From the NCBI GenBank assembly GCA_029879245.1, contig JAOUQQ010000010.1, positions 1 to 41,754 on the forward strand: a stretch of 41,754 nt of DNA, given 5' to 3'. The position numbers and the translations under genes were made by a program. The stretch is from Chromatiales bacterium (GTDB lineage: Bacteria > Pseudomonadota > Gammaproteobacteria > Thiohalomonadales > Thiohalomonadaceae). Positions 12,851 to 30,007 of this stretch are shown piece by piece (within the stretch, counting starts at the first letter, position 1; each line of letters begins with the position of its first letter). Under the pieces are notes generated by a model, which saw only the letters and a program-made list of their open reading frames with translations, was not told the origin of the DNA and made no database searches.

Positions 12851-13756
12851 CTAAATGGCGCTACGACAGCGAAGCTGTCCGATAAATGCCTCAGCCACCT
12901 GATGGTTAATGTTACTGCGATGGCGAGCGATCCAGAGGGTTCGCAGGATACGAAAACCGGTCACCTTGATGTGATAGAGACGGCCGCGATCGATCTCGTC
13001 ACGTACCGCGAACCAGGGGAGGAAACTGACGTGCTTGCCCCGGCCCAGCATCTCAATGATGGTGTCTGTAGAGCCGACCTCCATTGCTACAGGTATTTCG
13101 GGGACAGCAATTTTGCGTAGCGCCGCATCCAGGGTGAGGCGCATGGAAGATTGAGGCTCACGCAACACGTACTTGAGTTGTGGCAGCTGTTCTACTGGTA
13201 TCAGATCACTCCCCCACAGCGGGTGGCTGGGGCCACACACCAGCACCAGCTCATCGTCCAGCCACTTCTGCACCAGGATGTCCGGGTGATCCGGCGCCAG
13301 CTCCATCAGCGCCAGATCGGCCAGCCCTGTGGCGAGGTTGGTCTGGATCCGACGCGAATAGCGCATGCGGCTCTCTATGCGATAGTCGGGGTGGTTATCA
13401 GAGAAGTCGAGCAGCAGTTGCGGTAGCAGGTGCTCGCCGATGGCAAAGGTGACTTCAAGGCGCAAGTTCTTCTGACCACTTAGCATGGACGCCAGTTTGT
13501 CGGTCAACAGGTTCTGGTGATCCAGTACCAGTTGGGCGTAGGCATAGACCTGCTGACCGGCAGGGGTTAGCTCCAGCCTGCGCCCCTCGCGCTGCATCAG
13601 GGTGGTGTTATAGCAGGCGTCCAACGCCCGTAATCTCTTGGTAACGGCAGGCTGACCGATGTGAAGGGCGTGTGCCGCCTCCTCCACGCCTCCCAGTTCA
13701 ACGACCAGTTTCAGGGTGGCGAGGCCTTTCAGATCGGGGAGGCTGTTATATTCCAT
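12851..13756 (-). CDS. LysR-family transcriptional regulator, divergent from the SLC13 transporter
   Basis: 301 residues: winged helix-turn-helix at about 8-68 (GGVEEAAHALHIGQPAVTKRLRALD), then a substrate-binding effector domain (about 95-295, with FAIGEHLLPQLLLDFSDNHPDYRIE). The classic arrangement, a LysR gene divergent from its target, points to control of the transporter at 13956 and perhaps nhaD behind it. No clear ribosome binding site precedes the ATG at 13756; a 16-bp palindrome starts nine bases upstream, where it could also serve autoregulation. The effector could be the transported anion. Confidence 0.88.
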   Translation of the reverse strand: MEYNSLPDLKGLATLKLVVELGGVEEAAHALHIGQPAVTKRLRALDACYNTTLMQREGRRLELTPAGQQVYAYAQLVLDHQNLLTDKLASMLSGQKNLRLEVTFAIGEHLLPQLLLDFSDNHPDYRIESRMRYSRRIQTNLATGLADLALMELAPDHPDILVQKWLDDELVLVCGPSHPLWGSDLIPVEQLPQLKYVLREPQSSMRLTLDAALRKIAVPEIPVAMEVGSTDTIIEMLGRGKHVSFLPWFAVRDEIDRGRLYHIKVTGFRILRTLWIARHRSNINHQVAEAFIGQLRCRSAI

Positions 13757-13764
13757 GTAGGAAT

Positions 13765-13780
13765 ATTACAATATCGTAAT
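13765..13780. promoter_or_regulatory. Palindrome ATTAC-N6-GTAAT, candidate LysR operator
   Basis: ATTAC at 13765-13769 and GTAAT at 13776-13780 form a 5-bp inverted repeat around AATATC, within an AT-rich stretch between the divergent LysR and transporter genes. LysR boxes are commonly T-N11-A in such symmetry. It lies nine bases before the LysR start and about 175 bases before the transporter start. Confidence 0.5.
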
Positions 13781-13955
13781 TCATTTGAATAGTATTGCCA
13801 GTACAGGCAGACTTGCGCCCCTGTTTGACGGATTTACCCCGTGTACATCCCAATTCCCATGAAGAGTACAGTGAAATTCCCACCAGGAATGTTCACAGGG
13901 ACTGCGTTTTCGGTCCATTTTCTTCGTCTTGCGATACAACTATCAGGAGAATTGC

Positions 13956-15899
13956 ATGTCCCCCTCAGTGAAAAAGTGGGTAGCTGCAGGCATCTTTGCC
14001 CTGCTCACCGCCTACCTGGCATCGGTCGTTCCCAGCATTGAGATCGCCTGGGTAATGGCGCTGTTGATGCTTACCATCTATCTTTTCGCCTTCGAGGTGG
14101 TGGGGGTCGATGTGGCCGCCACCACGGTGATGGTGTTGCTGGGGCTTACCTCGATACTGGCACCACTGATGGGGCTGGAGCAGGGGCTGATCGATACCAA
14201 ATACCTGTTCGACGGCTTCTCCTCCAATGCGGTGATCTCGATCATCGCGGTGATGATCATCGGTGCCGGTCTCGACAAGACCGGACTGATGGGTAAGGTG
14301 GCTAATTTCATCTTGAAGATCGGCGGTACTACCGAGGGGCGCATCATCCCCATCATCTCAGGTACGGTAGGTTTCATCTCGTCGTTCATGCAGAACGTGG
14401 GGGCGGCGGCACTCTTTCTGCCGGTGGTCTCGCGTATCTCGGCACGCTCCGGCCTGCCGATGTCGCGCCTGCTGATGCCGATGGGCTTTACTGCAATCCT
14501 CGGCGGGACCATGACGATGATCGGCTCCTCGCCGCTGATACTGCTCAATGATCTGATCCTCACCTCCAACAAGACACTCTCCGAGACACAGCAGATGGAT
14601 ACCTGGGGGCTCTTCTCCGTCACCCCCATCGGGATCTGTCTGGTCGCCACCGGTATAATCTACTTTGTGCTGGCAGGTCGTTTTGTGCTTCCCGTGAGCA
14701 GGGGGGCAGAGGAGACCACCTCCGGTCAGCGTACCGTGGACTACTTCGATGAGCTGTATGGGGTTGAGTATGACGTCTATGAGGTACGTGTACCGCAGGA
14801 TAGCAAGATCATCGGCCTGAGCCTGGATGAGATCGAGGGGAGCTGCAAGGTACGTATCGTCGCCATCGAAAAGGGCGACGGGATGCGCTTTGGTGCCAAC
14901 AGTGTCGATCGCGCCACCGGCATCGAGGCGGGAACGGTGCTGGGGGTACTGGCCGATCAGGAGAACTTCGACCATTTTGTCGAGAAGTCCAGGGTTGATG
15001 TGAAGCCGGAGCTGGATGTCTTCTCCGATGCGCTGGTACCCACCAAGTCGGGTATTGCCGAGGTGGTTATCCCGCCTGGTTCCACTCTCGTCGGCAAAAC
15101 CGCGCGTGATGTCTGGATGCGCAAGAGCTACGGTCTGTCGTTAATGGCGATCCACCGCGCCGGTGCGACCATCACCCGCGAGGGTGGTGGAGTGCGTGAT
15201 ACCGCCTTCCAGGCCGGTGATGCGCTGGTGGTGCATACCGCCTGGTCCGACCTGGCCCGTCTGGAGAAGGACCGCAACTTTGTGGTGGTGACCACCGAGT
15301 ACCCGCACGAGGAGTTGCGTCCCCACAAACTCCTTCCTGCGCTGATTTTCTTTGTCACGGCGCTGGTATTGATCTTTATGGATGTACGCCTCTCCGTGGC
15401 GCTGCTGACGGGTGCAATGGGGATGGTTCTGACGAAGGTATTAACCATTGAAGAGGCCTATCAGGCGGTGAGCTGGAAGACGGTATTCCTGCTCGCCTCG
15501 CTGATCCCGCTTGGTCTGGCGGTAGAGACCAGTGGTACTGCCAAGTGGATCGCCGGTGAGGTGGTCGCCCTGGTGGGAGATGCCGCACCGTGGGTGATCC
15601 AGGGCTCCATCGCGGTTCTGGCGACATTCTTTACCCTGGTGATGTCCAACGTCGGTGCCACCGTGCTACTGGTACCGTTGGCGGTTAACATCGCTATTCA
15701 GGTGGGTGCCGACCCGGCGGTGTTCGCGCTGACTGTGGCCATCGCCACCTCCAACTCCTTCCTCATTCCTACCCATCAGGTTAATGCCCTGATCATGGGA
15801 CCGGGGGGATACCGTGTACCCGACTTTATGAAGGCGGGCGGTATCATGACCGTACTATTCCTCACGGTGATGCTGCTGGCTATGAATACCTTCTTTTAA
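13956..15899 (+). CDS. SLC13/DASS-type anion:Na+ transporter with two central RCK_C (TrkA-C) domains
   Basis: 647 residues from ATG 13956, which has AGGAG six bases upstream. About six N-terminal membrane segments (residues 8-240) and six C-terminal ones (about 465-647) flank a soluble middle. The middle (about 265-455) has two TrkA-C/RCK_C-like repeats (YEVRVPQDSKIIGLSLDEIE and EVVIPPGSTLVGKTARDVWM). Pseudo-repeats in the membrane halves contain SSFMQNVGAAALFLPV and TLVMSNVGATVLLVP with the SNxG-like motif of the SLC13/CitT superfamily. Relatives include the algal SAC1/SLT sulfate transporters, so sulfate or another divalent anion with Na+ is plausible. Placed between a LysR gene and nhaD. 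Confidence 0.88.
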   Translation: MSPSVKKWVAAGIFALLTAYLASVVPSIEIAWVMALLMLTIYLFAFEVVGVDVAATTVMVLLGLTSILAPLMGLEQGLIDTKYLFDGFSSNAVISIIAVMIIGAGLDKTGLMGKVANFILKIGGTTEGRIIPIISGTVGFISSFMQNVGAAALFLPVVSRISARSGLPMSRLLMPMGFTAILGGTMTMIGSSPLILLNDLILTSNKTLSETQQMDTWGLFSVTPIGICLVATGIIYFVLAGRFVLPVSRGAEETTSGQRTVDYFDELYGVEYDVYEVRVPQDSKIIGLSLDEIEGSCKVRIVAIEKGDGMRFGANSVDRATGIEAGTVLGVLADQENFDHFVEKSRVDVKPELDVFSDALVPTKSGIAEVVIPPGSTLVGKTARDVWMRKSYGLSLMAIHRAGATITREGGGVRDTAFQAGDALVVHTAWSDLARLEKDRNFVVVTTEYPHEELRPHKLLPALIFFVTALVLIFMDVRLSVALLTGAMGMVLTKVLTIEEAYQAVSWKTVFLLASLIPLGLAVETSGTAKWIAGEVVALVGDAAPWVIQGSIAVLATFFTLVMSNVGATVLLVPLAVNIAIQVGADPAVFALTVAIATSNSFLIPTHQVNALIMGPGGYRVPDFMKAGGIMTVLFLTVMLLAMNTFF

Positions 15900-15921
15900 C
15901 TTTAATACCTCGTTAGTCAAC

Positions 15922-15964
15922 GCTCCCGCTCTACTTATGTGAATACATCGGTGGGCTGGGGAGC
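15922..15964 (+). promoter_or_regulatory. Possible structured leader upstream of nhaD
   Basis: In the 114-base gap before nhaD, GCTCCC (15922-15927) can pair with GGGAGC (15959-15964), enclosing a second hairpin ATGT-GAAT-ACAT (15937-15948). Na+ antiporter genes are in some bacteria preceded by Na+- or proton-linked leader RNAs, so this could be a cis-regulatory RNA or simply a weak attenuator-like fold. I could not match it to a known riboswitch consensus. Confidence 0.3.
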
Positions 15965-16013
15965 TGTTGCCTGATGAAACGTTCATACACTCTATTAACG
16001 AGAGAAACAATTG

Positions 16014-17435
16014 ATGAAAAATATCGTAGCAACTCTTGTAGCGCTGCTTATACCGATGCTGCTCCCTACTGTCGCGATAGCAAGTAGCGGTGCAGGGCAC
16101 GAAACTCTGGATATGACGACCAGTAGTGTCGGATACGCTGCTATCGCCATATTTGTCCTGGCCTATATTCTGGTGATGGCGGAAGAGTTCACCCACTTGC
16201 GCAAGTCGAAGCCGGTGATCATCGCTGCCGGTATCATCTGGGCGATGATCGGCGCGGTCTATATGAGCCACGGTATGTCTCATGAGGCGGAGGTGGCGGT
16301 ACGCCACAATCTGCTCGAGTATGCAGAGCTGATGTTGTTCCTGCTGGTGGCGATGACCTACATCAACGCCATGGAGGAGCGCTCGGTATTCGATGCGCTG
16401 CGCTCCTGGTTGATCCAGAAGGGCTTCGGTTTTCGCAAACTGTTCTGGATGACCGGTTTCCTCGCCTTCTTTATCTCGCCGGTGGCCGATAACCTGACTA
16501 CCGCTCTGCTGATGTGCGCTGTTGTGCTGGCGGTAGGTGGTGACAACAGCCGATTTGTTACCCTGGCCTGTATCAACATCGTGGTCGGTGCCAACGCCGG
16601 TGGCGCTTTCAGTCCCTTCGGCGACATCACCACACTGATGGTATGGCAGAAGGGTATCGTCGACTTCTGGGGTTTCTTCGCCCTGTTTATCCCCTCGCTG
16701 GTCAACTTCGTGGTACCGGCGGCAATCATGCATTTTGCAATCCCCAACGAGCAGCCCACCGCTGGTGGTGACGCGGTGAGCATGAAGCGTGGTGCTAAGC
16801 GCATCATCGCACTGTTCCTGCTGACCATCGCTACCGCCGTCTCCTACCACAACTTCCTCGGCCTGCCGCCGGTGATTGGTATGCTGACAGGCCTCGGCTA
16901 TCTCAAGCTGTTCGGCTTCTTCCTCAAGAAGACCGCAAGACGTGATGAGAGCGCAGAGGATGTAGAGCACGAGGGACAGATGGGTGACGTGGTGCCCTTC
17001 GATATCTTCAACAAGATAGCGCGTGCCGAGTGGGATACCCTTTTCTTCTTCTACGGGGTGGTGCTCTGCGTCGGTGGCCTCGGTTTTCTCGGTTACCTCG
17101 CCCTGGTCTCAGATGTGATGTACAACTCCTGGGGTGCTACCAACGCCAACATTACGGTCGGCATCCTCTCCGCCATCGTCGACAACATTCCTGTAATGTT
17201 TGCCGTCCTTACCATGAACCCCGAGATGTCTCAGGGGCAGTGGTTACTGGTTACCCTAACTGCTGGCGTTGGTGGATCACTGCTCTCCATCGGTTCTGCG
17301 GCAGGTGTCGCTCTGATGGGACAGGCTAGAGGCAAGTACACCTTCTTTGGACACCTCAAGTGGTCGCCAGCGATCGCCGCCGGGTATGTGGCGAGCATCG
17401 CGGTCCATTTCTGGATTAATGCACACCTGTTCTGA
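16014..17435 (+). CDS. nhaD: NhaD-type Na+/H+ antiporter
   Basis: 473 residues. An N-terminal signal-like helix (MKNIVATLVALLIPMLLPTVAIAS) is followed by about twelve membrane segments. NhaD hallmarks are present: FISPVADNLTTALLM, NIVVGANAGGAFSPFGDITTLM and the second-half counterpart GILSAIVDNIPVMFAVLTM with GGSLLSIGSAAGVALMG. Known role: exports Na+ or Li+ in exchange for protons, mainly at alkaline pH and in halophiles. ATG 16014 is chosen over the TTG at 16011. It follows the SLC13 transporter by 114 bases on the same strand and ends in a strong terminator. Confidence 0.95.
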   Translation: MKNIVATLVALLIPMLLPTVAIASSGAGHETLDMTTSSVGYAAIAIFVLAYILVMAEEFTHLRKSKPVIIAAGIIWAMIGAVYMSHGMSHEAEVAVRHNLLEYAELMLFLLVAMTYINAMEERSVFDALRSWLIQKGFGFRKLFWMTGFLAFFISPVADNLTTALLMCAVVLAVGGDNSRFVTLACINIVVGANAGGAFSPFGDITTLMVWQKGIVDFWGFFALFIPSLVNFVVPAAIMHFAIPNEQPTAGGDAVSMKRGAKRIIALFLLTIATAVSYHNFLGLPPVIGMLTGLGYLKLFGFFLKKTARRDESAEDVEHEGQMGDVVPFDIFNKIARAEWDTLFFFYGVVLCVGGLGFLGYLALVSDVMYNSWGATNANITVGILSAIVDNIPVMFAVLTMNPEMSQGQWLLVTLTAGVGGSLLSIGSAAGVALMGQARGKYTFFGHLKWSPAIAAGYVASIAVHFWINAHLF

Positions 17436-17451
17436 GGGGATGATTTTCAGG

Positions 17452-17483
17452 AAAAGAGGTCGACTTAGTCGACCTCTTTTTTT
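17452..17483 (+). terminator. Strong intrinsic terminator after nhaD
   Basis: A perfect 13-bp stem (AAAAGAGGTCGAC / GTCGACCTCTTTT) with a TTA loop runs into an unbroken T-run, 16 bases past the nhaD stop. The A-run on the left means it can also act on the minus strand for the holin gene ending at 17489, six bases away. Confidence 0.93.
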
Positions 17484-17488
17484 GTTAT

Positions 17489-17953
17489 TCAGCCCACGGC
17501 ATCGTCGCTGCCAGCTCTTTTTGACTGGCTGACAGTGGTTGCGACCTTTTCGACTGAACGACCTACCACATACCCCCCAAGGCCAATCTGGATGAGATTA
17601 AATAGCTGCTTCTCGACATCTTTGAATGCAGCTTCATCACTGGGTTGAATCCAGCCAAGAAATCTTCCCACGATAAGAGAGACGAAAACCAGCATGGTGA
17701 TTGGACGCCAGTTTCGTGCAAGCCATGATGAGCTGGCGGCCTCTGCCTTGATGATATCTGACTGTAGTCTGTCAAGTTGTGACTGGTAGTCAATCATCTT
17801 CATGGTGACTTGGGACTGAATCTCATGAAGCTCTTTTTTTAGTTCCAGCCTTTTATTCTCCAGTGTCATCTTTTCTTCATCACTGGTGTGTAGATCGTCA
17901 ATGAGATCTGTCGCCGGCCTGAATATTCCACTGACAAAGTCGAGTATACCCAT
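17489..17953 (-). CDS. GTA/phage-type holin (3TM holin family)
   Basis: 154 residues. The N-terminal half is a charged helix, likely coiled coil (about 22-72). Hydrophobic segments follow, SSWLARNWRPITMLVFVSLIV with GRFLGWI, and FNLIQIGLGGYVVGRSV. The ARNWRPITML motif is the hallmark of the GTA_holin_3TM family (PF11351), found in gene transfer agents and prophages, where it forms membrane holes to release the muralytic enzyme. It lies 19 bases after the endolysin gene, behind GAGAGGATC. Base composition is more AT-rich than the flanking nhaD and lpdA. No capsid, tail or integrase genes accompany the pair. Confidence 0.82.
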   Translation of the reverse strand: MGILDFVSGIFRPATDLIDDLHTSDEEKMTLENKRLELKKELHEIQSQVTMKMIDYQSQLDRLQSDIIKAEAASSSWLARNWRPITMLVFVSLIVGRFLGWIQPSDEAAFKDVEKQLFNLIQIGLGGYVVGRSVEKVATTVSQSKRAGSDDAVG

Positions 17954-17972
17954 TATTGATCCTCTCTAATTG

Positions 17973-19319
17973 CTAGCTGCGTATTTTGTTGAATGCGTCG
18001 TAGTGCTCTTTTATCCATTTTCCATATTTCTCCTTCTGACCTGGGCCGTTGTAGTAACTGGCGAATTTTGTAAAGTCTTTGTTGCGTAATGCATTTAGCA
18101 TGGCTGGGTTAAGGAACTCGAACAGCCCAAGAATATGGTAGCGAATATCCTGATTAAATCTTTCAAACATATCCTGCACCGTTTCATATCCCAGTTTCTT
18201 GTGGTGAAATCCCATGATTTGTGGTGCTCCCATACTGATGGATAGCAGGGCTGAGGTGTCATCTAACGTTCGGGCAAACTCCAGTACCTGCCACTCACGC
18301 TGCTGGTTACCATGAAACTTTATCCACTCCATGTCACCGGCATTGCGCCACTGGTGTCCCAGCCACGGTTTACCGGAGAGGTTGAGGGAAAAGTGTTGTT
18401 TGAATTTTTCTGAATGATCTTTGCCCCAGTATTTCCAGAATTTGTGATTTTCAAAACGGATGATCTGCCGCCCCTGATTCTCACGCAGAAAACCATTCCC
18501 GGAACTTTCGACACAGAGTACGGCAATGATGCATGCCGTTTCAATATTATGTACTCCTGCCAGTTGCTGCAGGAGACCACCATACCTGTTCCAGGTCAGG
18601 GCGACGCTGAGCGATCTGCCAGAGCGATCAGTATCTAACAGCTCTGCTGGGGCGAGAGGCGTTGAATCGATATTGATGAGGCTATCCTCTTCTTCAGACG
18701 ACAGATCTGAATGGGGGATTAGCCTGCTATCGTCATTCTCATCAAGTCTAATATATTTTGCCGCGACAAAGGCTGAGAGGTCATTAAAGATAATTTCATA
18801 CCAGTTACCGTGTGTACTGCGCACCGTGATTTTCTCACCCAGGCTTAAGCTGCCAATAACTTTTGCTCGATGGGTGGCTGCCGAGCGGACATTCAAAGCC
18901 ATTGCGTTAACGGTGCCCTGGGTCACAGTGGACGATGCGGTGATCTCAACATGGCTACCGCTGATATAGCCGCTTTTCTGGTTGAAGTTAATCTCTAGCC
19001 AACCACCGTGTTGTGCGGCGACAGTTACTCGTGAGCCCCGGCGTAACTGTCCGATAACACTGCCACTCATTCCGGGTTCGTCACGCACATTGAGTATTTG
19101 CGGTTTGACCCGAGCGGTGAGAGGTCCAGGTTCGGCTATCGGGTCGATGTAGCGGCGCGAGGCAAAGGCGCGTTTGCCTATGTAATCGATCTCATACCAC
19201 TCATCATTTTCGCCAACTATCCCGACTACTGCATCCTGCAGAAGGATGCCGATCGGACTGGCATCAATGCCAGGCCCTGCGCGTACATTGAGTTTGGCGA
19301 CAGATACTTTTCCCTGCAT
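17973..19319 (-). CDS. Endolysin-like protein: three bacterial SH3 domains plus N-acetylmuramidase
   Basis: 448 residues from ATG 19319, with GAGGAG five bases upstream; an in-frame GTG at 19331 is less likely. Three bacterial SH3 repeats fill about 1-60, 65-128 and 133-192, each with a LNVR-type strand and a W-x-E/I-x-YISGxHV-type end. An acidic linker (about 195-230) leads to a C-terminal N-acetylmuramidase domain (DUF3380/PF11860, about 245-448) with the probable catalytic Glu271 in AVLCVESSGNGF, plus MGAPQIMGFHH and FASYYNGPGQ. It should cut the peptidoglycan glycan backbone. No signal peptide, so release would depend on the holin encoded 19 bases downstream. Confidence 0.88.
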   Translation of the reverse strand: MQGKVSVAKLNVRAGPGIDASPIGILLQDAVVGIVGENDEWYEIDYIGKRAFASRRYIDPIAEPGPLTARVKPQILNVRDEPGMSGSVIGQLRRGSRVTVAAQHGGWLEINFNQKSGYISGSHVEITASSTVTQGTVNAMALNVRSAATHRAKVIGSLSLGEKITVRSTHGNWYEIIFNDLSAFVAAKYIRLDENDDSRLIPHSDLSSEEEDSLINIDSTPLAPAELLDTDRSGRSLSVALTWNRYGGLLQQLAGVHNIETACIIAVLCVESSGNGFLRENQGRQIIRFENHKFWKYWGKDHSEKFKQHFSLNLSGKPWLGHQWRNAGDMEWIKFHGNQQREWQVLEFARTLDDTSALLSISMGAPQIMGFHHKKLGYETVQDMFERFNQDIRYHILGLFEFLNPAMLNALRNKDFTKFASYYNGPGQKEKYGKWIKEHYDAFNKIRS

Positions 19320-19638
19320 ATCACTCCTCACCGATTGTTAGAATTGTATTACGCGTGTGGAAATCAGTTGTTATGACCGACTTAAGTACCACCGAATGTG
19401 GTTGTGCTACGTGGGCCGTTCGAATGGGGATATTGTCGTGATTCTCTGATATCCATATGGGGAACGTTCCCTGCAAGTGGTTAGATAGAGATTAGTACAC
19501 AGTCGATTTAGTGTAAAGTGATCGATACGACCGCTATTTCAATAAATAATACAGGTATCGGTCACGCGATTGATTCCTTTGTTGTATCCTTCAAACGCGA
19601 TAGAATAGTGGTCATCATTAGCATTAGATGGATTTGCG
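19320..19638. other. Intergenic region between the endolysin and the gene at 19639, with adjoining palindromes
   Basis: No gene is supported in these 319 bases. CCATATGG (19453-19460) abuts the perfect 12-bp palindrome GGGAACGTTCCC (19460-19471). These are candidate operator sites for one or both divergent genes. No LexA box (CTGT-N8-ACAG) was seen. The endolysin's ribosome binding site is at 19324-19329. Upstream of 19639 the region is AT-rich and could hold a promoter, but no clear -35/-10 pair stood out. Confidence 0.55.
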
Positions 19639-19917
19639 ATGAAACCAAAAACTGAAGTCGTCATGGGTGATATGATCCGCCAGATCAGGGAGAGATTTCC
19701 GTTCGATATGAGCGAGGAGGAGATGTGTGGCGACAGCTGCAGTTATGGCTGCCCGAGAAACCTGCTGGAATATATGCATGCCGAGATCAGTGACTGGGAG
19801 CAACGTATGCAGCAGGGGGAGATCCCCAATTTCGGTGACATTCAGAAATTCTCAAAGAGTGGCAGAATGATCTATCGGGTGCTGGAGAAGAATCAGTTGA
19901 TTAAGAAAGAGGACTGA
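19639..19917 (+). CDS. Small Cys-motif protein, unknown function
   Basis: 92 residues, no signal peptide, no membrane segment. A compact four-residue-spaced cysteine patch, CGDSCSYGCPRNLLEYM (about 30-46), could bind a metal or Fe-S centre. The rest is charged and helical. The ATG at 19639 lacks a strong ribosome binding site. A terminator follows 22 bases after its stop, so it is a monocistronic gene. I do not recognise the family; the cysteine pattern is the only functional clue. Confidence 0.68.
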   Translation: MKPKTEVVMGDMIRQIRERFPFDMSEEEMCGDSCSYGCPRNLLEYMHAEISDWEQRMQQGEIPNFGDIQKFSKSGRMIYRVLEKNQLIKKED

Positions 19918-19938
19918 CTCTTTTGTGTACCTGAACAT

Positions 19939-19969
19939 AAAAAAACCGGCTAGATAGCCGGTTTTTTTA
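19939..19969. terminator. Bidirectional intrinsic terminator between the 19639 gene and lpdA
   Basis: CCGGCTA/TAGCCGG (19946-19952 / 19955-19961) is flanked by seven A on the left and seven T on the right, so the stem works for both convergent transcripts: the small gene on the plus strand and the PDH operon on the minus strand. Confidence 0.92.
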
Positions 19970-19987
19970 TTATGGCGGTGTAAAAAC

Positions 19988-21754
19988 TTACTTCTTCTTT
20001 GGCGCGTAAATGTCAGTACAGGTTCCTTCTGCTACCTCTGCGGCAAAGTTGAAGGTCTCTGACAGGGTAGGGTGCGGATGAATAGTTAGCGCAATATCCT
20101 CGATGTCGGCACCCATCTCCAGCGCCAGTACCGCCTCGGCAACCAACTCGCCGGCATTGGGGCCACACATGGCGGCACCGATAAGGCGGTGATTCTCGTC
20201 GAAGATCACCTTAGTCATCCCCTCATCACGCCCCAGCGAGAGAGAGCGGCCTGATGCAGCCCAGGGGAAGACACCCTTCTCATAGGCGATGCCCTCACTC
20301 TTGCACTGCTCCTCGGTCTTGCCCATCCACGCCACCTCCGGATCGGTGTAGGCAACGGATGGGATGGTCTTGGCATCGAAGAACGATTTGTGGCCGGAGA
20401 TATTTTCAGCGGCCACCTTGCCCTCATGGGTCGCCTTATGGGCCAGCATCGGCTGGCCGACGATGTCACCGATGGCGTAGATGTGTGGCACATTGGTGTG
20501 CATCTGTTTGTCGACCTCTATGAAGCCCCAGTCGTTGACGGTAACGCCCGCCTTCTCCGCATCAATCAGTTTACCGTTGGGTGAACGGCCGATGGCGACC
20601 AGTACGCGGTCGAAAGTATCTTCCTCTGGTGCACCCTTGCCCTCGAATTTACAGACCAAACCCTTCTTTGAGGGTTCGATAGCGGTGACTTTGGTGTTGA
20701 GGAAGATATTTTCGTACTTCTTCTTGATGCGACGCTCCAGCGAGCGCACCACATCGCGGTCGGCACCGGGGATGAGACCCGGTGATAGCTCGACGACCGT
20801 TACCTTTGAACCCAGTGCATCGTAAACAGTGGCCATCTCCAGTCCAATGATGCCGCCGCCGACCACCAGAAGGCGTTTCGGTACCTCTTCGATCTCCAGC
20901 GCATCGGTGGAGTCCATCACACGCGGGTCGTCCCACGGGATGAAGGGGAGTTTGGTGACGCGTGAACCGGCGGCGATGATGCAGTTTTCAAAACCGATGA
21001 CACTCTTGCTGCCATCCTCGGCCTCAACCTCAATGGTGTTGGCTGAGGTAAACTTGCCGTAGCCGTGTACGATCTCGACCTTACGCTGTTTCGCTAGCCC
21101 CTTGAGACCACCGGTCAGTTTGTTGATGACGCTGTTTTTGTGCTCTCGCAGCTGATTGATGTCGATCTTCGGTTTACCGAAGGTCACACCAATGTGTTCA
21201 AACTCCTCCGCTTCGTTGATCACCTGGGCCGTATGGAGTAGTGCCTTGGAGGGGATACAGCCGACGTTAAGACAGACCCCACCGATGTTCTGGTAGCGTT
21301 CGATAAGGATCACATTCTGACCCAGATCGGCGGCGCGGAAGGCGGCGGTGTAACCACCGGGGCCGGAGCCCAGCACCACGGTCTGGGCCGACTTGTCGAC
21401 AGCGCCGCTGTAGCTGGCGGCCTGTGGAGCGGGAGTCGCTGGCTTCTCTTCTGCAACAGGCGCAGCAGCCTCTTCCTTCTTTTCTTCAGCCGGAGATGCC
21501 GCCGCAGCTTCCGCGCCTGCCTCCAGCATCAGAATGGCAGAACCCTCGGAGACCTTGTCGCCGAGAGAGAGCAGTATCTCTTTGACCACACCACCCTGCG
21601 GTGCGGGGATCTCCATCGCCGCCTTGTCGGATTCGACGGAGATGAGGGAGTCCTCTGCGGCGATGGTGTCACCGATACTGACCAGGATCTCAATCACCTC
21701 CACATCGGCAAAATCGCCAATATCGGGTACCTTGATTTCGATTACATTGCTCAT
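19988..21754 (-). CDS. lpdA: Dihydrolipoyl dehydrogenase (E3) with N-terminal lipoyl domain
   Basis: 588 residues, about 110 longer than E. coli Lpd because of an added lipoyl domain (1-80, lipoyl-lysine Lys44 in VESDKAAME) and an Ala/Pro/Glu linker (about 80-120). FAD-binding VVLGSGPGGYTAAF follows, then the redox disulfide Cys161/Cys166 in GGVCLNVGCIPSK, the NAD domain (VVGGGIIGLEMATVY), and the catalytic HPHPTLSE near 559-566. It reoxidises dihydrolipoyl groups with NAD+ in the pyruvate dehydrogenase complex. Last gene of aceE-aceF-lpdA, 10 bases after aceF, before a terminator. Confidence 0.95.
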   Translation of the reverse strand: MSNVIEIKVPDIGDFADVEVIEILVSIGDTIAAEDSLISVESDKAAMEIPAPQGGVVKEILLSLGDKVSEGSAILMLEAGAEAAAASPAEEKKEEAAAPVAEEKPATPAPQAASYSGAVDKSAQTVVLGSGPGGYTAAFRAADLGQNVILIERYQNIGGVCLNVGCIPSKALLHTAQVINEAEEFEHIGVTFGKPKIDINQLREHKNSVINKLTGGLKGLAKQRKVEIVHGYGKFTSANTIEVEAEDGSKSVIGFENCIIAAGSRVTKLPFIPWDDPRVMDSTDALEIEEVPKRLLVVGGGIIGLEMATVYDALGSKVTVVELSPGLIPGADRDVVRSLERRIKKKYENIFLNTKVTAIEPSKKGLVCKFEGKGAPEEDTFDRVLVAIGRSPNGKLIDAEKAGVTVNDWGFIEVDKQMHTNVPHIYAIGDIVGQPMLAHKATHEGKVAAENISGHKSFFDAKTIPSVAYTDPEVAWMGKTEEQCKSEGIAYEKGVFPWAASGRSLSLGRDEGMTKVIFDENHRLIGAAMCGPNAGELVAEAVLALEMGADIEDIALTIHPHPTLSETFNFAAEVAEGTCTDIYAPKKK

Positions 21755-21764
21755 CGTCTGCCCC

Positions 21765-23057
21765 CTATAGCATCAGGCGGCGTGTATCGGATAACACGCG
21801 GCTCAGGAAGGTGGTAAAGCGGGCTCCATCGGCACCATCGATCACGCGATGGTCATAGGAGAGCGACAGCGGCAGCATCATGCGTGGCTCGAACTCCTTG
21901 CCGTTCCACACCGGTTGCATCTTGGAGCGTGAGACGCCGAGGATGGCGACCTCGGGGGCATTCACGATGGGGGTGAATTTGGTGCCACCGATACCACCCA
22001 GACTGGAGATGGTGAAACAGCCGCCCTGCATGTCGGAGGGTTTGAGTTTCTTGTCGCGTGCCTTGATGCTGATCTCGCCAAGTTCAACGGCCAGATCGAC
22101 CAGCGATTTACGGTCCACATCGCGTACCACCGGCACCACCAGACCATCGGGGGTATCTACCGCGATGCCGATGTTGTAGTAGCCCTTCATGATCAGATTC
22201 TCGCCGGTGACATCCAGCGAGGAGTTGAAGCGCGGATACTGCTTCAGTGCGGAGACCACCGCCTTCATCATGAAGACCAGCGGGGTGATACGGATCCCCT
22301 GATCGCGGTATTCGGCTGCCAGCTCCTTGCGGAAGGCATCCATATCGGTAATGTCGGCCTCGTCGAACTGGGTCACGTGCGGAATGGTTACCCAGTTACG
22401 GTGCAGGAACTCACCGGTAAGCTTGTTAATCTTGGTCAGGGCTTTGCTCTCAACGGCTCCCCACTGGCTGAAATCGATCTCGGGCATCGGTGCCACACCA
22501 AGGCCACCACCGGCAGGCTGGGCCAGGACACGCTTGACGAAGTTCTGCACGTCCTCTTTGGTGATGCGTCCCTTGCGGCCTGAACCGTCCACCTTTCCCA
22601 GATCTACCCCCAGCTCACGGGCGAACTTGCGGATCGCCGGTGAGGCGTAGGCCTTGGAGAAGCTCACCTCATCGATGTGGGCGGTGGGCGACTGGCGAAC
22701 GGGTGTCGGGGCAGCTCTGGGTGGCGCTGTTACGGGTGCCGGTGCCGCTGTGGGCTCCTCTTTTGCAGCTACAGGCTCCGGTTCAGCCGCCGCAGCAGGG
22801 ACCGCCTCGGCGGTAGCGCCTTCGGCAGGCTCGAGGATCAGCAGCAGGCTCCCCTCGGAGACGGTATCACCGACCTTGATCTTCAGCTCTTTAATGACAC
22901 CGCCCTCGGGAGCGGGGATCTCCATCGCCGCCTTTTCCGATTCAACGGTGATCAGTGAGTCTTCGGCATTGATGGTGTCGCCGACGCTAACCAAAACCTC
23001 GATAACTTCTACGTCGGAGAAGTCGCCAATATCGGGAACAAAAATCTCTTTTGCCAT
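21765..23057 (-). CDS. aceF: Dihydrolipoyl acetyltransferase (E2) of pyruvate dehydrogenase
   Basis: 430 residues with one lipoyl domain (1-78, lipoyl-lysine Lys42 in VESEKAAME), so shorter than the three-lipoyl E. coli E2. An Ala/Pro/Glu-rich hinge (about 80-125) follows, then the peripheral subunit-binding domain (about 135-180, [19 protein letters not shown]) and the catalytic core with [13 protein letters not shown] (His403, Asp407). It transfers acetyl from lipoyl to CoA and forms the complex core. The lipoyl domain is nearly the same as the one fused to E3. Fifteen bases separate it from aceE. Confidence 0.96.
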
Positions 23058-23072
23058 GGTCGTTACTCCCCC

Positions 23073-25736
23073 TTATGAAAACAACGGATTGCGTTTTTCC
23101 GGGTCGATGCCGTACTTCTTGATCGCCTCGGCTACCTTCCCGGCCGGCAGGTCGCCGGCATCGGCGAGGGCACTCAGCGCGGCGATGACCACATGGTAGC
23201 GATTCACCTCGAAGTGTTTGCGTAGCTGGGCGCGGGTATCGGAGCGGCCAAAGCCGTCGGTGCCCAGCACGGTGTAGTCAGCGGGTACCCACTTGCGGAC
23301 CTGATCGGCATAGCTGCGGATGTAGTCGGTGGCGGCAATCACGGGGCCACGACGGCCGGTAAGGCACTGCTCCACATAGGCGACCTTTTTGTCGGCCAGC
23401 GGGTGGAGGCGGTTCCAGCGCTCTACATCACGTGCCTCACGGGCCAGTTCGTTAAAGCTGGTCGCGGACCAGATGTCGGCATCCACGCCCCACTCCTCGT
23501 CGAGCATCTCGGCCGCGGCAATTACCTCGCGGAAGATGGTGCCGGAACCCATCAGCTGCACCTTCTTGCGCTTCTTGCCACCGGACTTGAAGAGGTACAT
23601 CCCCTTGATGATCCCCTCCTCAGAGCCCTTGGGCATGGCCGGATGGGTGTAGTTCTCGTTCATCGTGGTGACGTAGTAGAAGACGTTCTCCTGCTCCGCA
23701 TACATGCGACGCAGGCCATCCTGCACGATCACCGCCAGCTCGTAGCTGAAGGTGGGGTCGTAGCTGACGCAGTTGGGGATGGTGCCGGCCATGATCAGAC
23801 CATGACCATCCTGGTGCTGCAGACCCTCACCGGCGAGGGTGGTACGGCCTGCGGTGGCACCGATGAGGAAACCTCGGGCCTGCATGTCACCAGCAGCCCA
23901 GGCCAGGTCACCGATACGCTGGAAACCGAACATGGAGTAGTAGATATAGAACGGAATGGTGTTTACGCCGTGGGAGCTGTAGGAGGTGGCGGCAGCGATC
24001 CAGGAGGACATGGCACCGGCCTCGTTGATCCCCTCTTCGAGGATCTGGCCGGACTTGTCCTCTTTGTAGAACATAATCTCGTCCTTATCCTGCGGGGTAT
24101 AGAGCTGCCCTACGGAAGAGTAGATACCCAACTGGCGGAACATTCCCTCCATACCGAAGGTGCGCGCCTCGTCGGGGACGATGGGGACGATGTTCTTGCC
24201 GATCTTCTTGTCACGGCAGAGCAGGGTGAGCAGACGCACATAGGCCATGGTGGTCGACATCTCCTTGTCACCACTACCTTCCAGCAGGCTCCTGAAGGTC
24301 TCCAGTGCAGGCACCTCCAGCGGTGTGGCAAGGTTGCTGCGCGAAGGCAGATAGCCCCCCAGCTCCTTGCGACGCGCGTGCATGTACTTCATCTCTTCGC
24401 TCTCGGGGTCAGGCTGGATGTAGGTACAGGCGGCCGCCTCTTCATCACTCAACGGGATGTTGAAGCGGTCACGTACATAGATCATCTCATCATCGCCCAG
24501 CTTCTTCTGCGAGTGGGTGCGGTTCTGACCTTCACCGGCGGCACCCATGCCGTAACCCTTAACGGTCTGGGCCAGGATGACGGTGGGCTGACCCTTATGC
24601 TCAGCGGCGGCCTTGTAGGCGGCATAGACCTTGTGCGGGTCATGGCCACCACGGTTGAGGCGCCAGATGTCATCATCGGTCATCTTCGAGACCATCGCCT
24701 TCAGCTCGGGATACTTGCCGAAGAAGTGCTCACGCACATAGGCACCGTCCTTCGACTTGTAGTTCTGCAGGTCACCATCGACCACCTCAAGCATGCGCTT
24801 GTGCAGCAGGCCATCTTTGTCCTTGGCCAGCAGCGGATCCCAGTAGGAGCCCCACAGTACCTTGATCACATTCCAGCCGGCGCCACGGAAGCTGGCTTCC
24901 AGCTCCTGTACGATCTTGCCATTGCCGCGTACCGGGCCGTCCAGACGCTGCAGATTGCAGTTGATGACCCAGGTGAGGTTATCGAGCTTCTCGCGCGAGG
25001 CGAGACCGATGGCGCCCAGTGATTCCGGCTCGTCGGTCTCACCATCACCAAGGAAGGCCCAGACCTTGCGGTTTCTGGTATCGGCCAGACCACGGTCCTG
25101 CAGGTACTTCATAAAGCGGGCCTGGTAGATCGACATGATCGGTCCCAGCCCCATCGAGACGGTGGGGAACTGCCAGAAGTCGGGCATCAGCCATGGGTGG
25201 GGGTAGGAGGAGAGGCCATTACCATCGACCTCCTGGCGGAAGTTATCCAGTTGTTCCTCGCTGAGGCGCCCCTCAAGGAAGGCGCGGGAGTACATACCGG
25301 GGGCGGCGTGGCCCTGGGAGTAGATCAGGTCTCCACCATGTTCGTGGGTGGGGGCGCGCCAGAAGTGGTTCATTCCTACATCATATAGGGTGGCTGCGGA
25401 GGCAAAGGAGGCGATGTGGCCACCCAGCTCGGTGGATTTGCGGTTGGCCTTCACCACCATCGCTACGGCATTCCAGCGGATTAAGGCGCGAATGCGATCC
25501 TCAATGGCCGGGTCGCCCGGCATCTGAGGCTCCATGTGGGGGGGGATGGTGTTCACATAGGCGGTATTGGCGGAGTAGGGCAGGTTGACGCCGGAACGGC
25601 GTGCCTGGTCAATCATCTGCTCCATCAGGAAGTGGGCGCGCTCTGCCCCCTCTGCATCAAGAACTGCGGCCAGTGCATCGAGCCACTCCTGAGTCTCGAC
25701 ACTATCGATATCCATGATCCCGGGTTGCTGTGACAT
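23073..25736 (-). CDS. aceE: Pyruvate dehydrogenase E1 component (homodimeric)
   Basis: 887 residues, the length of the single-chain homodimeric E1 of gammaproteobacteria. The thiamine diphosphate motif GDGETDEPESLGAI lies near 230. Other family blocks are PYSANTAYVNTIPPHMEP, SQGHAAPGMYSRAF, GYGMGAAGEGQNRTHSQKKL and the C-terminal VLGTDGFGRSDTRAQLRKHFEV. It decarboxylates pyruvate and acetylates the E2 lipoyl group. Clear ribosome binding site (AGAGGGTGG) before the ATG. First gene of the operon, divergent from lipB-lipA. Confidence 0.97.
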   Translation of the reverse strand: MSQQPGIMDIDSVETQEWLDALAAVLDAEGAERAHFLMEQMIDQARRSGVNLPYSANTAYVNTIPPHMEPQMPGDPAIEDRIRALIRWNAVAMVVKANRKSTELGGHIASFASAATLYDVGMNHFWRAPTHEHGGDLIYSQGHAAPGMYSRAFLEGRLSEEQLDNFRQEVDGNGLSSYPHPWLMPDFWQFPTVSMGLGPIMSIYQARFMKYLQDRGLADTRNRKVWAFLGDGETDEPESLGAIGLASREKLDNLTWVINCNLQRLDGPVRGNGKIVQELEASFRGAGWNVIKVLWGSYWDPLLAKDKDGLLHKRMLEVVDGDLQNYKSKDGAYVREHFFGKYPELKAMVSKMTDDDIWRLNRGGHDPHKVYAAYKAAAEHKGQPTVILAQTVKGYGMGAAGEGQNRTHSQKKLGDDEMIYVRDRFNIPLSDEEAAACTYIQPDPESEEMKYMHARRKELGGYLPSRSNLATPLEVPALETFRSLLEGSGDKEMSTTMAYVRLLTLLCRDKKIGKNIVPIVPDEARTFGMEGMFRQLGIYSSVGQLYTPQDKDEIMFYKEDKSGQILEEGINEAGAMSSWIAAATSYSSHGVNTIPFYIYYSMFGFQRIGDLAWAAGDMQARGFLIGATAGRTTLAGEGLQHQDGHGLIMAGTIPNCVSYDPTFSYELAVIVQDGLRRMYAEQENVFYYVTTMNENYTHPAMPKGSEEGIIKGMYLFKSGGKKRKKVQLMGSGTIFREVIAAAEMLDEEWGVDADIWSATSFNELAREARDVERWNRLHPLADKKVAYVEQCLTGRRGPVIAATDYIRSYADQVRKWVPADYTVLGTDGFGRSDTRAQLRKHFEVNRYHVVIAALSALADAGDLPAGKVAEAIKKYGIDPEKRNPLFS

Positions 25737-26176
25737 GATTCCACCCTCTTTTGGTTTTGTGCCCTCATATTATGGGGCTTTTTGAATGTTGGGCAATGAT
25801 CCGGTCTTTGACGATAAAAAGCAATAAAAAATCGCCTATATTTCTGTAATGTAAAAATAATTAACATATAAAACAATAAGATGCATGACGCAAATAATTT
25901 CCCCTGTTTCTCGGGTGTTAACCGAACAGGGTACAAAATAGGCGATTCTCTGGCTTGATGGGGAAAATTCCCCCTCAATTCCGCCTGTGGTAGTTGAAAT
26001 TTGCCGAATTTATCCGTTAAGTCTTGCCAGATTTTGCATGCGGGTATATTGTTTGTCGTGTTTTCAACATGTTATGACACCTGTTTTATTTTCGTATGTC
26101 GTGGAGATATTCCCGACTAACGACGCCAGACTGGAAGAGCCATCGTCCGGTCAACGGTGTCCACAAGGGAAGGCCC
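25737..26176. other. 440-bp divergent control region between aceE and lipB
   Basis: No gene is supported here; the reading frames inside look random. The half next to aceE is AT-rich. AATCGCCTAT (25830-25839) recurs inverted as ATAGGCGATT (25938-25947). A hairpin lies at 25902-25931, and GGGGAA-AA-TTCCCC at 25960-25973. No match to the PdhR site (ATTGGT-N3-ACCAAT) was found. The region must carry promoters for both operons, and the symmetric elements are candidates for shared control. Confidence 0.6.
25902..25931. promoter_or_regulatory. Hairpin or operator in the aceE-lipB control region
   Basis: CCCTGT (25902-25907) pairs with ACAGGG (25926-25931), with TCGG/CCGA (25911-25914 / 25922-25925) inside and loop GTGTTAA; three bases bulge on the left. 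It could be an operator for a dimeric regulator or a leader hairpin in the aceE mRNA. It is 166 bases upstream of the aceE start. Confidence 0.4.
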
Positions 26177-26851
26177 ATGTCCGCTCCTCACTTACGTATA
26201 CGGCACCTGTCGGGTCTGCTCCCCTATCAGCCAGTATGGCAGGCGATGCAGGCGTACACCGCACAGCGTGATGAAGAGAGCGCCGACGAGGTCTGGTTGC
26301 TGCAGCACGAGCCGGTCTACACTCAGGGGCGTAACGGCAGGCCCGAGCACATCCTCAATCCCGGCTCGATTCCGGTGGTGCAGATTGACCGAGGTGGTCA
26401 GGTGACCTATCACGGACCGGGTCAGCTAGTGGTGTACCTGTTAATAGATCTCAAGCGTCTGAAACTGGGGGTGCGTGAGATGGTCAGTGTGATGGAGCGT
26501 TCTATCATTGCCGTTCTGGCCGAATACGGTGTTCAGGCGGTTGCCCGTGCGGATGCCCCCGGGGTCTATGTGGAGGGTGCCAAGATCGCCGCTCTTGGGC
26601 TGAGGATTCGTAAAGGGAGGTGTTACCATGGCCTCAGTTTCAATCTGCAGATGGCTCTTACCCCGTTTGACCAGATCAATCCATGTGGTTACGAGGGGAT
26701 GGCGGTGACTCAGCTGGCCGACCACAGTGACAGCTGGGAGTGGGAGCAGGTGGAGCAGGCGCTGATCACGCATCTGGTACAGCAGCTTGGCGATATCCCG
26801 TATAGCGAAATTGAGGGCGGCATAGCCATCCCCGGAGCCGAGAGACGATGA
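26177..26851 (+). CDS. lipB: Lipoyl(octanoyl) transferase
   Basis: 224 residues from ATG 26177, preceded by AAGGGAAGG; a longer start at 26096 would add an unrelated N-terminus. Family motifs are [18 protein letters not shown] (about 72-89), the catalytic Lys136 in [10 protein letters not shown] and Cys170 in INPCGYEGM. It moves octanoyl from acyl carrier protein to lipoyl domains, the first step of lipoylation. Overlaps lipA by four bases (ATGA) and is divergent from the PDH genes whose E2 and E3 lipoyl domains are its substrates. Confidence 0.96.
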
Positions 26852-27795
26852 ACGACAAGGGTAAACGTAATCCGCTAAAGGGTGAGTCGAAGACGGCGCG
26901 CATCCCGATCAAGGTGGTGCAGAATGAGGTGAGGCTACCCAAACCGAAGTGGATACGTGCCAAGGTGCCCCGGGGTTCCGGAGTCAACAGAATCAAGCAG
27001 GTGCTGCGTGAGCACAACCTCTATACCGTCTGTGAAGAGGCCGCCTGCCCCAATCTGGGAGAGTGTTTCTCCCACGGTACCGCCACCTTTATGATCATGG
27101 GCGAGGTCTGCACCCGTCGCTGCCCCTTTTGCGATGTGGCGCACGGCCTGCCCGAACCGCTGGATCAGGATGAGCCCGGCAAACTGGCTACAACCATCCG
27201 TGACATGGGGCTGAAATATGTGGTCATCACCTCGGTGGATCGAGACGACCTGCGTGATGGAGGGGCGGCACACTTTGCCGAGTGTATTACCCAAATACGC
27301 GCGCTCTCACCCGATATTCAGATCGAGATCCTGACCCCCGACTTTCGTGGCCGTATGGAGGTGGCACTGCAACTGTTGGCCGAGTCGCTACCCGATGTCT
27401 TTAACCACAATCTGGAGACAGTGCCGCGCCTCTACAAGGCGGCCCGTCCCGGTGCCGATTACACCTGGTCGCTGCGGCTGCTAAAAGAGTTCAAGGTGGC
27501 ACATCCCGAGGTGCTTACCAAGTCGGGGCTGATGGTGGGGCTGGGTGAGAGTAATGAGGAGATCCTTGAGGTGATGCGAGATATGCGCACTCACGATGTG
27601 AATATGCTGACCATCGGTCAGTATCTGCAGCCGAGTGAGTATCACCTGGCGGTGCAGCGATACGTGACCCCGGATGAGTTCGAGATGTTTCGTAGTGAGG
27701 GAGAGAAAATGGGTTTTAGCAATGTTGCCAGTGGCCCGATGGTGCGCTCCTCCTATCACGCAGATCTGCAAACGCGTGGTGACAGGGTGGAATAG
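26848..27795 (+). CDS. lipA: Lipoyl synthase (radical SAM)
   Basis: 315 residues. The auxiliary 4Fe-4S cluster cysteines are Cys62, Cys67 and Cys73 ([12 protein letters not shown]); the radical SAM triad is Cys88, Cys92 and Cys95 (CTRRCPFC). The RSSYHA motif that completes the auxiliary cluster is near the C-terminus. It inserts two sulfur atoms into octanoyl chains on lipoyl domains. Translation is coupled to lipB through ATGA. A probable terminator follows. Confidence 0.97.
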
Positions 27796-27799
27796 GTAA

Positions 27800-27849
27800 A
27801 ATAACTCCGGTACTTCGCAACAAACGTGGAGGTTATTCCCCCCTTTTTT
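27800..27849 (+). terminator. Probable terminator after lipA
   Basis: AATAACTCC (27800-27808) pairs with GGAGGTTATT (27828-27837) with one bulged G and a 20-base loop, followed by CCCCCC and a six-T run at 27844-27849. The T-run overlaps the end of the convergent GGDEF/EAL gene. The long loop makes it weaker than the other terminators in the window. Confidence 0.55.
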
Positions 27850-29773
27850 ATTGCCCGACTGATGTAACATTAGCCATTGCAGGGATTTCCCATGAGCCGG
27901 GTGATTCAAGCCATGTGATGAACGCCTCACCCGGCATCGGTCTGGCAATGTAATACCCCTGGACAATATCGCAGCCAAGCTGTATCAGCTGTTCGACGAT
28001 CTCCCTGTTTTCAACCCCCTCACCGATGACCCTGTAGGACATATTGTGGGCCAGTTCGATAATGGATCGTACGATAGTGGCGTTGCTGCGATTGACATCC
28101 ATATTTCTGACAAAGGATTGATCAATCTTGATCTCGTGTACCGGGAGGATGTTGAGGTATGAGAGGGAGGTATATCCTGTGCCAAAGTCATCAATGGAGA
28201 GGGTGACCCCCATTTCATGAAGTAGTGACAGGATCTCCAGTGCCCTTTGCGGGTCGAGTACGATGGCAGTCTCCGTTATCTCGAGTGTGAGGTATGCAGG
28301 GTCGAGCTTGTACCGCCGCAACAGCTCATAAACCATGTCCGGCAGGTCACTATTCTGGATATTCCGCGCCGAGAGGTTGACCGCTACATTCAGTGGGAAA
28401 CCTCTATGGTAGCTCTCGCTGCTGAACTTGATCGCCTCCTCCAGCACCCACTGGGTAAGAGGGTGAATAATGCCGCTCTGCTCTGCTAACGGGATAAAAT
28501 CGTTGGGCGGGATCATTCCGATGGTTGGATGCTGCCAGCGTATCAACGCCTCGGCGGAGGCCTTGTCTGGATTGCTGGGGTCTATTTGAGGCTGAAAGTG
28601 GAGTAGCAGTTCACCATTGTCGATGGCATTCCGCAGGGAGTTGATCAGGGTGAGGCGGTGGTGGCTGTGTGAGTCCTGGCTGGTATCGTAGTAGCTATAG
28701 CCATAACACCTCTCCTTGGCCTGATACATGGCAATTTCGGCGTGTCGAATCAGGGTGCTGACATCTTCGCCATGGTCAGGATAAAAGGCGATACCAATAC
28801 TGGACTCGACGCCGAACTCATGGTCATCGAGATTGTATGGTTGGGAGAGGGCCGCAATAATCTTTTCGACGACCAGATTGCAGTGCTCTATCGATTCAAC
28901 ACTGATCACCACACCAAATTCGTCTGCACCGAATCGCGCTATCGTGTCGGAGCTACGCAATGAATTAACAAGGCGTCGTGATACTTCGATCAAAACATGA
29001 TCGCCATCCGTATGTCCAAGTGTGTTGTTGATCTCTTTAAAACGGTCCAGATCGATAACCAGCATAGCGACCAGTTTTTTCTGGGCGCGTGCATTATAGA
29101 TAGCCTTTTTTAAATTGGCTCGTAGCGCAAAACTGTTGGAAAGGTTGGTCAGCTCATCGTGGGATGATCGGTACTCCAGCTCTTCATTCTGAGATTGGAG
29201 ACGTCGGTGAATAATGGTAGAGAAGATCATGATCAGCCAGAGAGAGAACCACATCAGTACAACGGCAGAGGCGATTAGCCGTTTATTCATTTTTGACAGG
29301 ATCACGGAGAATTTATCAATCTTGTAGTGTAGATTGAGGAGCGTCAGGTCAGTATCGGCAACATCGGCTTTTGCCCAGATGTAGAACTCGTCACCAATCG
29401 CAATAGAACCGCTACGGCGACTGCTGGTTAATAGTTCCTCCCAGGGTAATAGGGAAAATTCCCCGCTCTGTAACTGTTCCAGTGGGATGGAGGCTGCGAA
29501 AATTTTTCCATCCCGACCTATGAGGTCGATAAAATCGTTTTCCTCCTGAGAGGCCATAAGCCCGGTCCATACAGCAGGGTCATGTACATCCACATGTGAA
29601 GGGATGGCTTTGTAATGATGTTCAACCTCTTCGCGCACGAGACGTTCCAGAAGTCCACTCTCATGGGAGAGCAGGGAGTCGAGAGAGGTCTGATAGGCGA
29701 TCAGGGCGAAGATGGCGATGGTCACCAGAAGTAGTGACGAAAAGCCTATAATCATCAATCGCTTGATATTCAC
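27848..29773 (-). CDS. Membrane-bound GGDEF-EAL c-di-GMP protein with degenerate GADEF motif
   Basis: 641 residues. A membrane helix at about 8-28, a periplasmic sensory domain (about 30-165) and a second helix (about 166-189) precede the GGDEF domain (about 200-360) and the EAL domain (about 375-630). The active-site loop reads FGADEF (281-286), not GGDEF, though the inhibitory RxxD (273-276) is present. The EAL domain looks active: EAL at 408-410, NLSARNI, EITETAI, DDFGTGYTSL, KIDQSFV, GEGVEN, QGYYIARP. Likely a phosphodiesterase, possibly allosterically tuned by its GADEF half. Directly follows the DUF2892 gene on the same strand. Confidence 0.93.
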   Translation of the reverse strand: MNIKRLMIIGFSSLLLVTIAIFALIAYQTSLDSLLSHESGLLERLVREEVEHHYKAIPSHVDVHDPAVWTGLMASQEENDFIDLIGRDGKIFAASIPLEQLQSGEFSLLPWEELLTSSRRSGSIAIGDEFYIWAKADVADTDLTLLNLHYKIDKFSVILSKMNKRLIASAVVLMWFSLWLIMIFSTIIHRRLQSQNEELEYRSSHDELTNLSNSFALRANLKKAIYNARAQKKLVAMLVIDLDRFKEINNTLGHTDGDHVLIEVSRRLVNSLRSSDTIARFGADEFGVVISVESIEHCNLVVEKIIAALSQPYNLDDHEFGVESSIGIAFYPDHGEDVSTLIRHAEIAMYQAKERCYGYSYYDTSQDSHSHHRLTLINSLRNAIDNGELLLHFQPQIDPSNPDKASAEALIRWQHPTIGMIPPNDFIPLAEQSGIIHPLTQWVLEEAIKFSSESYHRGFPLNVAVNLSARNIQNSDLPDMVYELLRRYKLDPAYLTLEITETAIVLDPQRALEILSLLHEMGVTLSIDDFGTGYTSLSYLNILPVHEIKIDQSFVRNMDVNRSNATIVRSIIELAHNMSYRVIGEGVENREIVEQLIQLGCDIVQGYYIARPMPGEAFITWLESPGSWEIPAMANVTSVGQ

Positions 29774-29785
29774 GGTAGTAATTCG

Positions 29786-30007
29786 TTACTTGTTGTCGCA
29801 GGTGCTCATGTTGATAAGTGAGTAGATGGGGCAGACAGCAATGATGGCTACTATCAGATTTACCAGTGCGATTACTCCCAGGATTAGTGCTATGAAGGGG
29901 TCGCTTGAGGTTTCAGGGTAGACAAAGGCAAGGTAGAAGAAGAACGCTGCGAATCCCCCCCTGAGTATGCGATCAAACGGTCCAACGTTCGGTTTTAAGG
30001 TGATCAT
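29786..30007 (-). CDS. DUF2892 family (YgaP-like) small inner-membrane protein
   Basis: 73 residues with the DUF2892 pattern: NVGPFDRILRGGFAAFFFYL, a second hydrophobic segment ALILGVIALVNLIVAIIAVC, then the CPIYSLINMSTC end. Two membrane helices. The family occurs alone or fused to rhodanese, and often in sulfur-related contexts, but the function is not established. The ATG at 30007 has GGGAG nearby. It is 12 bases before the GGDEF-EAL gene, so probably co-transcribed. Confidence 0.85.
   Translation of the reverse strand: MITLKPNVGPFDRILRGGFAAFFFYLAFVYPETSSDPFIALILGVIALVNLIVAIIAVCPIYSLINMSTCDNK

Follow-up and report, generated by a model that had tools for sequence, protein, structure and literature searches.

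Bacteria are known to use phage-type holins with peptidoglycan hydrolases for purposes of their own, as in the type 10 secretion systems of Gram-negatives, which pair a holin with a peptidoglycan hydrolase apart from phage (reviewed in PMC9527704) and are exemplified by the Serratia chitinase system and the Yersinia entomophaga lysis cassette. In explosive cell lysis of Pseudomonas aeruginosa, a bacterial holin and the endolysin Lys open a subpopulation of cells (PMC4834629; PMC8131026). The endolysins with a PF11860 catalytic domain, Pae87, LysT84 and AP3gp15, either lack a wall-binding domain or carry a single one, PG_binding_1. Pae87 has been crystallised, mutation showed that its glutamates E29 and E46 are needed, and the partner domains named for PF11860 are PG_binding_1, SH3_5 and LysM (PMC8972805). 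Few cases of holin-endolysin pairs belonging to bacteria themselves are known, and in most of them the pair goes with a toxin, a chitinase, a tailocin or a prophage.

The window (the whole 41,754-nucleotide stretch of DNA analysed) carries a two-gene minus-strand unit, a muramidase gene followed by a holin gene, between nhaD and the pyruvate dehydrogenase (PDH) operon. Like the type 10 examples, it joins a phage-type holin to a peptidoglycan hydrolase outside phage; unlike them it has neither a cargo gene nor a visible spanin gene, and it combines PF11860 with PF11351 and three SH3 domains. The resemblance to explosive lysis in P. aeruginosa lies in a holin and endolysin opening a subpopulation, which is proposed for the cassette. 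It differs in that the cassette stands alone, in a genome with no tailocin sheath, whereas the P. aeruginosa Lys sits in the pyocin cluster. The present pair stands alone, is common to distant free-living bacteria and is strongly selected in at least one genus of which cultured species have been sequenced. What benefit a suicide-type tool brings to a free-living cell thereby becomes a question open to test by deletion. A literature search found no paper on stand-alone cassettes of this kind, which is weak evidence as subscription papers were mostly outside its coverage, and none on Paraglaciecola with holin.

Layout of the locus and its two products

An earlier note on this DNA had described a GTA-type holin and a three-SH3 muramidase between nhaD and the PDH operon, and the coordinates, domain calls and position all hold against the open reading frames (ORFs), Pfam and PHROG. 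The N-acetylmuramidase gene (17973..19319, minus strand, 448 aa) was defined from the ORF list, Pfam, alignment and an AlphaFold model. Its product matches PF11860 at 143 bits (cut-off 22.3), preceded by PF08239 (SH3_3) in three N-terminal stretches, and the endolysin family phrog_1224. The ORF opens at GTG 19331; ATG 19319 was taken as the start because of the ribosome site GAGGAG and agreement with the start in relatives.

The muramidase keeps the predicted catalytic residues Glu271 and Glu290. Both are invariant across 14 relatives (E271 in CVESSGNGF and E290 in RFENHKF) and align with E29 and E46 of Pae87. The AlphaFold model is of moderate confidence (mean pLDDT 76); over the catalytic domain it matches the fold of Pae87, LysT84 and AP3gp15. 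The likeness to these endolysins therefore covers the catalytic domain, both catalytic glutamates and the fold, and the three SH3_3 domains set the cassette muramidase apart from them. By hydropathy the N-terminus has no signal or SAR helix, and the relatives likewise start straight at the first SH3 domain. The SH3-first architecture noted earlier holds, and holin-dependent export would be the natural reading of it.

The holin gene (17489..17953, minus strand, 154 aa; ORF list, Pfam, PHROG) begins with an ATG 19 bp past the muramidase stop and has its own ribosome site (GAGAGGATCAATA-ATG). Its product belongs to PF11351 (GTA_holin_3TM; 43.5 bits, cut-off 24.8) and phrog_3427 (holin; 128 bits). 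The GTA-type call stands as family membership and needs refinement as to topology: hydropathy gives one clear membrane helix (81-105), a low-confidence model allows a possible second, and "3TM" comes from the name of the Pfam family. The structure model is poor (pLDDT 64), too weak for fold conclusions.

On its 3′ side the cassette shares a bidirectional intrinsic terminator (17453..17486; AAAAGAGGTCGAC-TTA-GTCGACCTCTTTTTTT) with the convergent nhaD (16011..17435, plus strand; NCBIfam NF038006). The hairpin, which the consensus terminator scan overlooked and folding z revealed, is strong and symmetric (z = -6.6 and -6.8; about -6.7 on either strand) and could act for nhaD and the cassette alike. 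On the 5′ side, a divergent intergenic region of GC 0.42 (19320..19638) must contain the cassette promoter, which would read on the minus strand. It includes a 12-bp palindrome, GGGAACGTTCCC, near 19460-19471, which may be due to chance; among the fetched loci, that of the window has the palindrome and those of the relatives do not. The flanking 92-aa ORF (19639..19917, plus strand), divergent from the cassette, has no Pfam, PHROG or PADLOC match and nothing ties it to the cassette. It encodes a cysteine-containing motif, CGDSCSYGCP, and is followed by a terminator-like hairpin near 19940-19970. Beyond it lie lpdA, aceF and aceE of the PDH operon.

Distribution and conservation of the cassette

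Relatives were sought with peptides of the window muramidase across 84,980 genomes. The scan returned 20 muramidase relatives, 18 of them matched over their full length at 39-47% identity, in Paraglaciecola, two Hahella, Aliikangiella, Pseudomaricurvus and several metagenome-assembled genomes (MAGs). Within the Paraglaciecola family, muramidase relatives were present in 13 of 297 genomes, and the family thereby added 7 genomes to those of the peptide scan. After removal of duplicates there were 27 evaluable loci, including the window; locus L016 was left out, as its contig ends too soon. The holin gene is directly 3′ of the muramidase gene in 26 of the 27, the exception (L029) being a muramidase domain with no holin. 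The cassette was single-copy in all ten genomes checked. Host genes stand on either side in the window and in the relatives, and synteny, one of the checks suggested in the earlier note, showed the two-gene pair standing alone in chromosomes with neighbours whose kinds vary by lineage.

The muramidase and holin appear to evolve as a unit: their identity matrices agree (Mantel r = 0.84, reached in 0 of 5000 permutations) and their trees are broadly alike. In Paraglaciecola both genes are under strong purifying selection, the median dN/dS (omega) being about 0.07 for the muramidase (8 pairs) and about 0.03 for the holin (10 pairs).

Nonsense decay, which the earlier note had set against a domesticated module, was found to a small extent. 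The muramidase frame is uninterrupted in 24 of the 26 pairs; one Paraglaciecola copy (L095) has an in-frame TAG in the muramidase gene. A MAG (L021, 4693-7286) has a split muramidase with an additional partial holin of 63 aa downstream, through decay or assembly error. From these two interrupted copies, the cassette can be lost. Its spread is patchy, with one carrier among the 369 genomes sampled in the window's class (the window genome itself) and 2/163, 1/40 and 1/144 in three families, and the cassette is therefore dispensable. No full-length muramidase of the cassette type was found in the other members searched of the window's own family. A candidate carrier from the order of the nearest relative (G1066) was rejected, as it encodes a single-domain muramidase with neither SH3 nor holin.

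Probable conditional wall opening and competing readings

We consider it fairly probable that this is a horizontally shared, stand-alone bacterial cassette for holin-dependent wall opening, that is, conditional lysis. On firing of the cassette promoter, the holin would build up in the inner membrane and open it; the cytoplasmic muramidase would then gain the wall, bind through its SH3 domains and cut glycan strands with Glu271 and Glu290. The expressing cell, probably one of a subpopulation, would open and release its cytoplasmic contents. From the gene content we infer lysis of expressing cells as the simplest outcome of the parts. No separate spanin gene was seen and the window cassette leaves no room for one, so, barring an embedded spanin, rupture of the outer membrane would be mechanical. 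The domesticated stand-alone module of the earlier note is supported by the pair standing alone in bacterial chromosomes and by its purifying selection in Paraglaciecola. The cassette is therefore probably functional, serving to open cells in a controlled way, and not a viral leftover.

A sub-case of this explanation, with which its confidence overlaps, is that Na+/H+ antiport governs the cassette or acts together with it, through NhaR for instance, so that cells would open once they can no longer maintain sodium or pH homeostasis or the proton motive force. By neighbour clustering, 15 of the 26 pair loci have Na+/H+ antiporter genes no more than about 3 kb away from the cassette, an adjacency noticed post hoc and not a planned test. 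They are of three unrelated kinds: NhaA at 11 loci, Mrp subunits at three and NhaD at one, the window. NhaR lies between NhaA and the cassette in seven loci, co-directional with the cassette. The NhaA and Mrp contexts are intermixed in the tree, from which it follows that the neighbour changed kind within Paraglaciecola. On a rough estimate, well under 1% of genes belong to antiporter loci, and the finding of three kinds among some eleven independent contexts therefore exceeds expectation. Holins are also generally sensitive to membrane energy.

Against such a link, the independent events number only about three, with 14 of the 15 loci falling in the Paraglaciecola group; in Hahella, Aliikangiella, Pseudomaricurvus and several of the MAG loci there is no antiporter at this position. 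The window's nhaD is convergent, with the terminator between it and the cassette, and the same-genus genome G001 has an NhaD homologue at the site with no cassette. The shared regulatory motif that the earlier note had suggested seeking was not found either, no upstream 9-mer being common to three distant loci. We regard the link as unlikely on balance, and equally so the wider idea that aquatic bacteria have a class of lysis cassettes that are independent of phage and wired to sodium/proton homeostasis. If it were true, cells losing ion balance, or sensing its loss via NhaR-type regulation, would open themselves by holin and muramidase. The antiporter neighbours offer a first concrete candidate for a trigger. 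Some 1.2 kb upstream of the cassette in Paraglaciecola sp. 20A4 (L022), NhaR is fragmented into three short ORFs, with NhaA and the cassette intact.

A non-lytic use of the type 10 kind, in which a limited amount of muramidase let out by the holin would loosen the wall, periplasmic proteins would leave and the cell would survive, is likewise unlikely. The parts are the same, a holin with a cytoplasmic peptidoglycan hydrolase and no phage, the precedent in Gram-negatives is established (PMC9527704) and the absence of a visible spanin suits a non-lytic role. The type 10 cassettes for chitinases and toxins are, however, linked to their cargo, and here no cargo gene recurs in any lineage; in the relatives' neighbourhoods, no gene family other than the pair itself and the antiporters recurs across lineages.

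Abortive infection, with early lysis of phage-infected cells, is improbable. A patchy, horizontally moving, single-copy cassette in shifting neighbourhoods would fit a defence role, but the best PADLOC score was 13.6 bits, which is chance level, and no defence genes were noticed beside the relatives.

More improbable again is a remnant or cut-down prophage lysis module, now functionless, which the earlier note had offered as one of its readings. The parts are phage-type. The PF11351 holins of Pseudoalteromonas phage HS6 and podovirus ctOsX528, found in the phage records, are 42-43% identical to the cassette holin over 89-94% of its length, and IMG/VR gave more than 580 holin matches, with identities of 40-51% on phage contigs. 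The holin half derives from phages, among which such holins are frequent at present. The window copy is, moreover, AT-rich. The combination of an SH3-muramidase with this holin was, by contrast, not found in phages. Among 50,697 phage records no match spanned 80% of the muramidase, and in IMG/VR close patterns gave no full-length relative and a profile gave catalytic-domain relatives only, so that the SH3-muramidase half was found in cellular genomes only. The HS6 holin lies near an endolysin different from that of the cassette, and the ctOsX528 record names no adjoining endolysin. Of 160 viral contigs chosen for either gene, one had both parts together (in the fetched stretch) and none carried an SH3-muramidase fusion. 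Nearest among the viral relatives seen is a stand-alone muramidase domain on a 168-kb viral contig (L098, 5947-6687), 46% identical to the cassette catalytic domain.

The bacterial loci argue in the same direction. No phage genes were noticed beside the relatives, among the neighbours read and the sampled Pfam matches, which are not a full annotation, and the complete prophage carrying the cassette in relatives, which the earlier note had named as contrary evidence, was looked for and not found. The cassette occurs alone in many chromosomes with its frame mostly unbroken and under strong purifying selection, and in the relatives its composition fits the host. The prophage-remnant reading is largely refuted by this conservation, and on comparative sequence evidence the cassette is a bacterial one assembled out of phage-type components and not a prophage in decay. 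Least probable of all is the release of a GTA or tailocin encoded elsewhere: PF11351 is named after gene-transfer release and the lysis pair has no adjoining particle genes, but neither HK97 capsid (PF05065) nor contractile tail sheath (PF04984) had a match in the 98%-complete window genome, where positive controls were detected, and in 24 loci the 300 bp upstream contain no LexA-like box (CTG-N10-CAG), so that GTA or R-type tailocin release and plain SOS control are all unlikely.

Probable recent arrival of the cassette in the window genome

Returning to conditional wall opening by a horizontally shared cassette, the window copy bears marks of its own arrival. Its GC is 0.487 against 0.575 in the flanks, in keeping with the AT-richness relative to both sides reported earlier, and its GC3 is 0.50-0.53 against a median of 0.69. 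In 12 relatives the cassette differs little in GC from its flanks, which speaks for long residence there, whereas the window cassette is 9 points below its flanks. The cassette is absent at the same site in G001, in which NhaD is 88% identical. The low GC and this absence together suggest a fairly recent horizontal transfer into the window lineage.

The LysR regulator, CitMHS/TrkA_C transporter (13929-15899, Pfam) and NhaD genes form a genus-conserved block (12851-17435), with identities of 72, 81 and 88%, respectively, between G001 and the window, and the transporter pair is present in several family members. In the comparison of window 13929-31020 with L055 2880-12928, NhaD is followed in the window by the cassette, the PDH operon (aceE, aceF, lpdA) and lipB/lipA. 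At the same site G001 has a pyruvate:ferredoxin oxidoreductase together with a partner oxidoreductase, so that one pyruvate-oxidising system appears to have been exchanged for another after NhaD between the two genomes.
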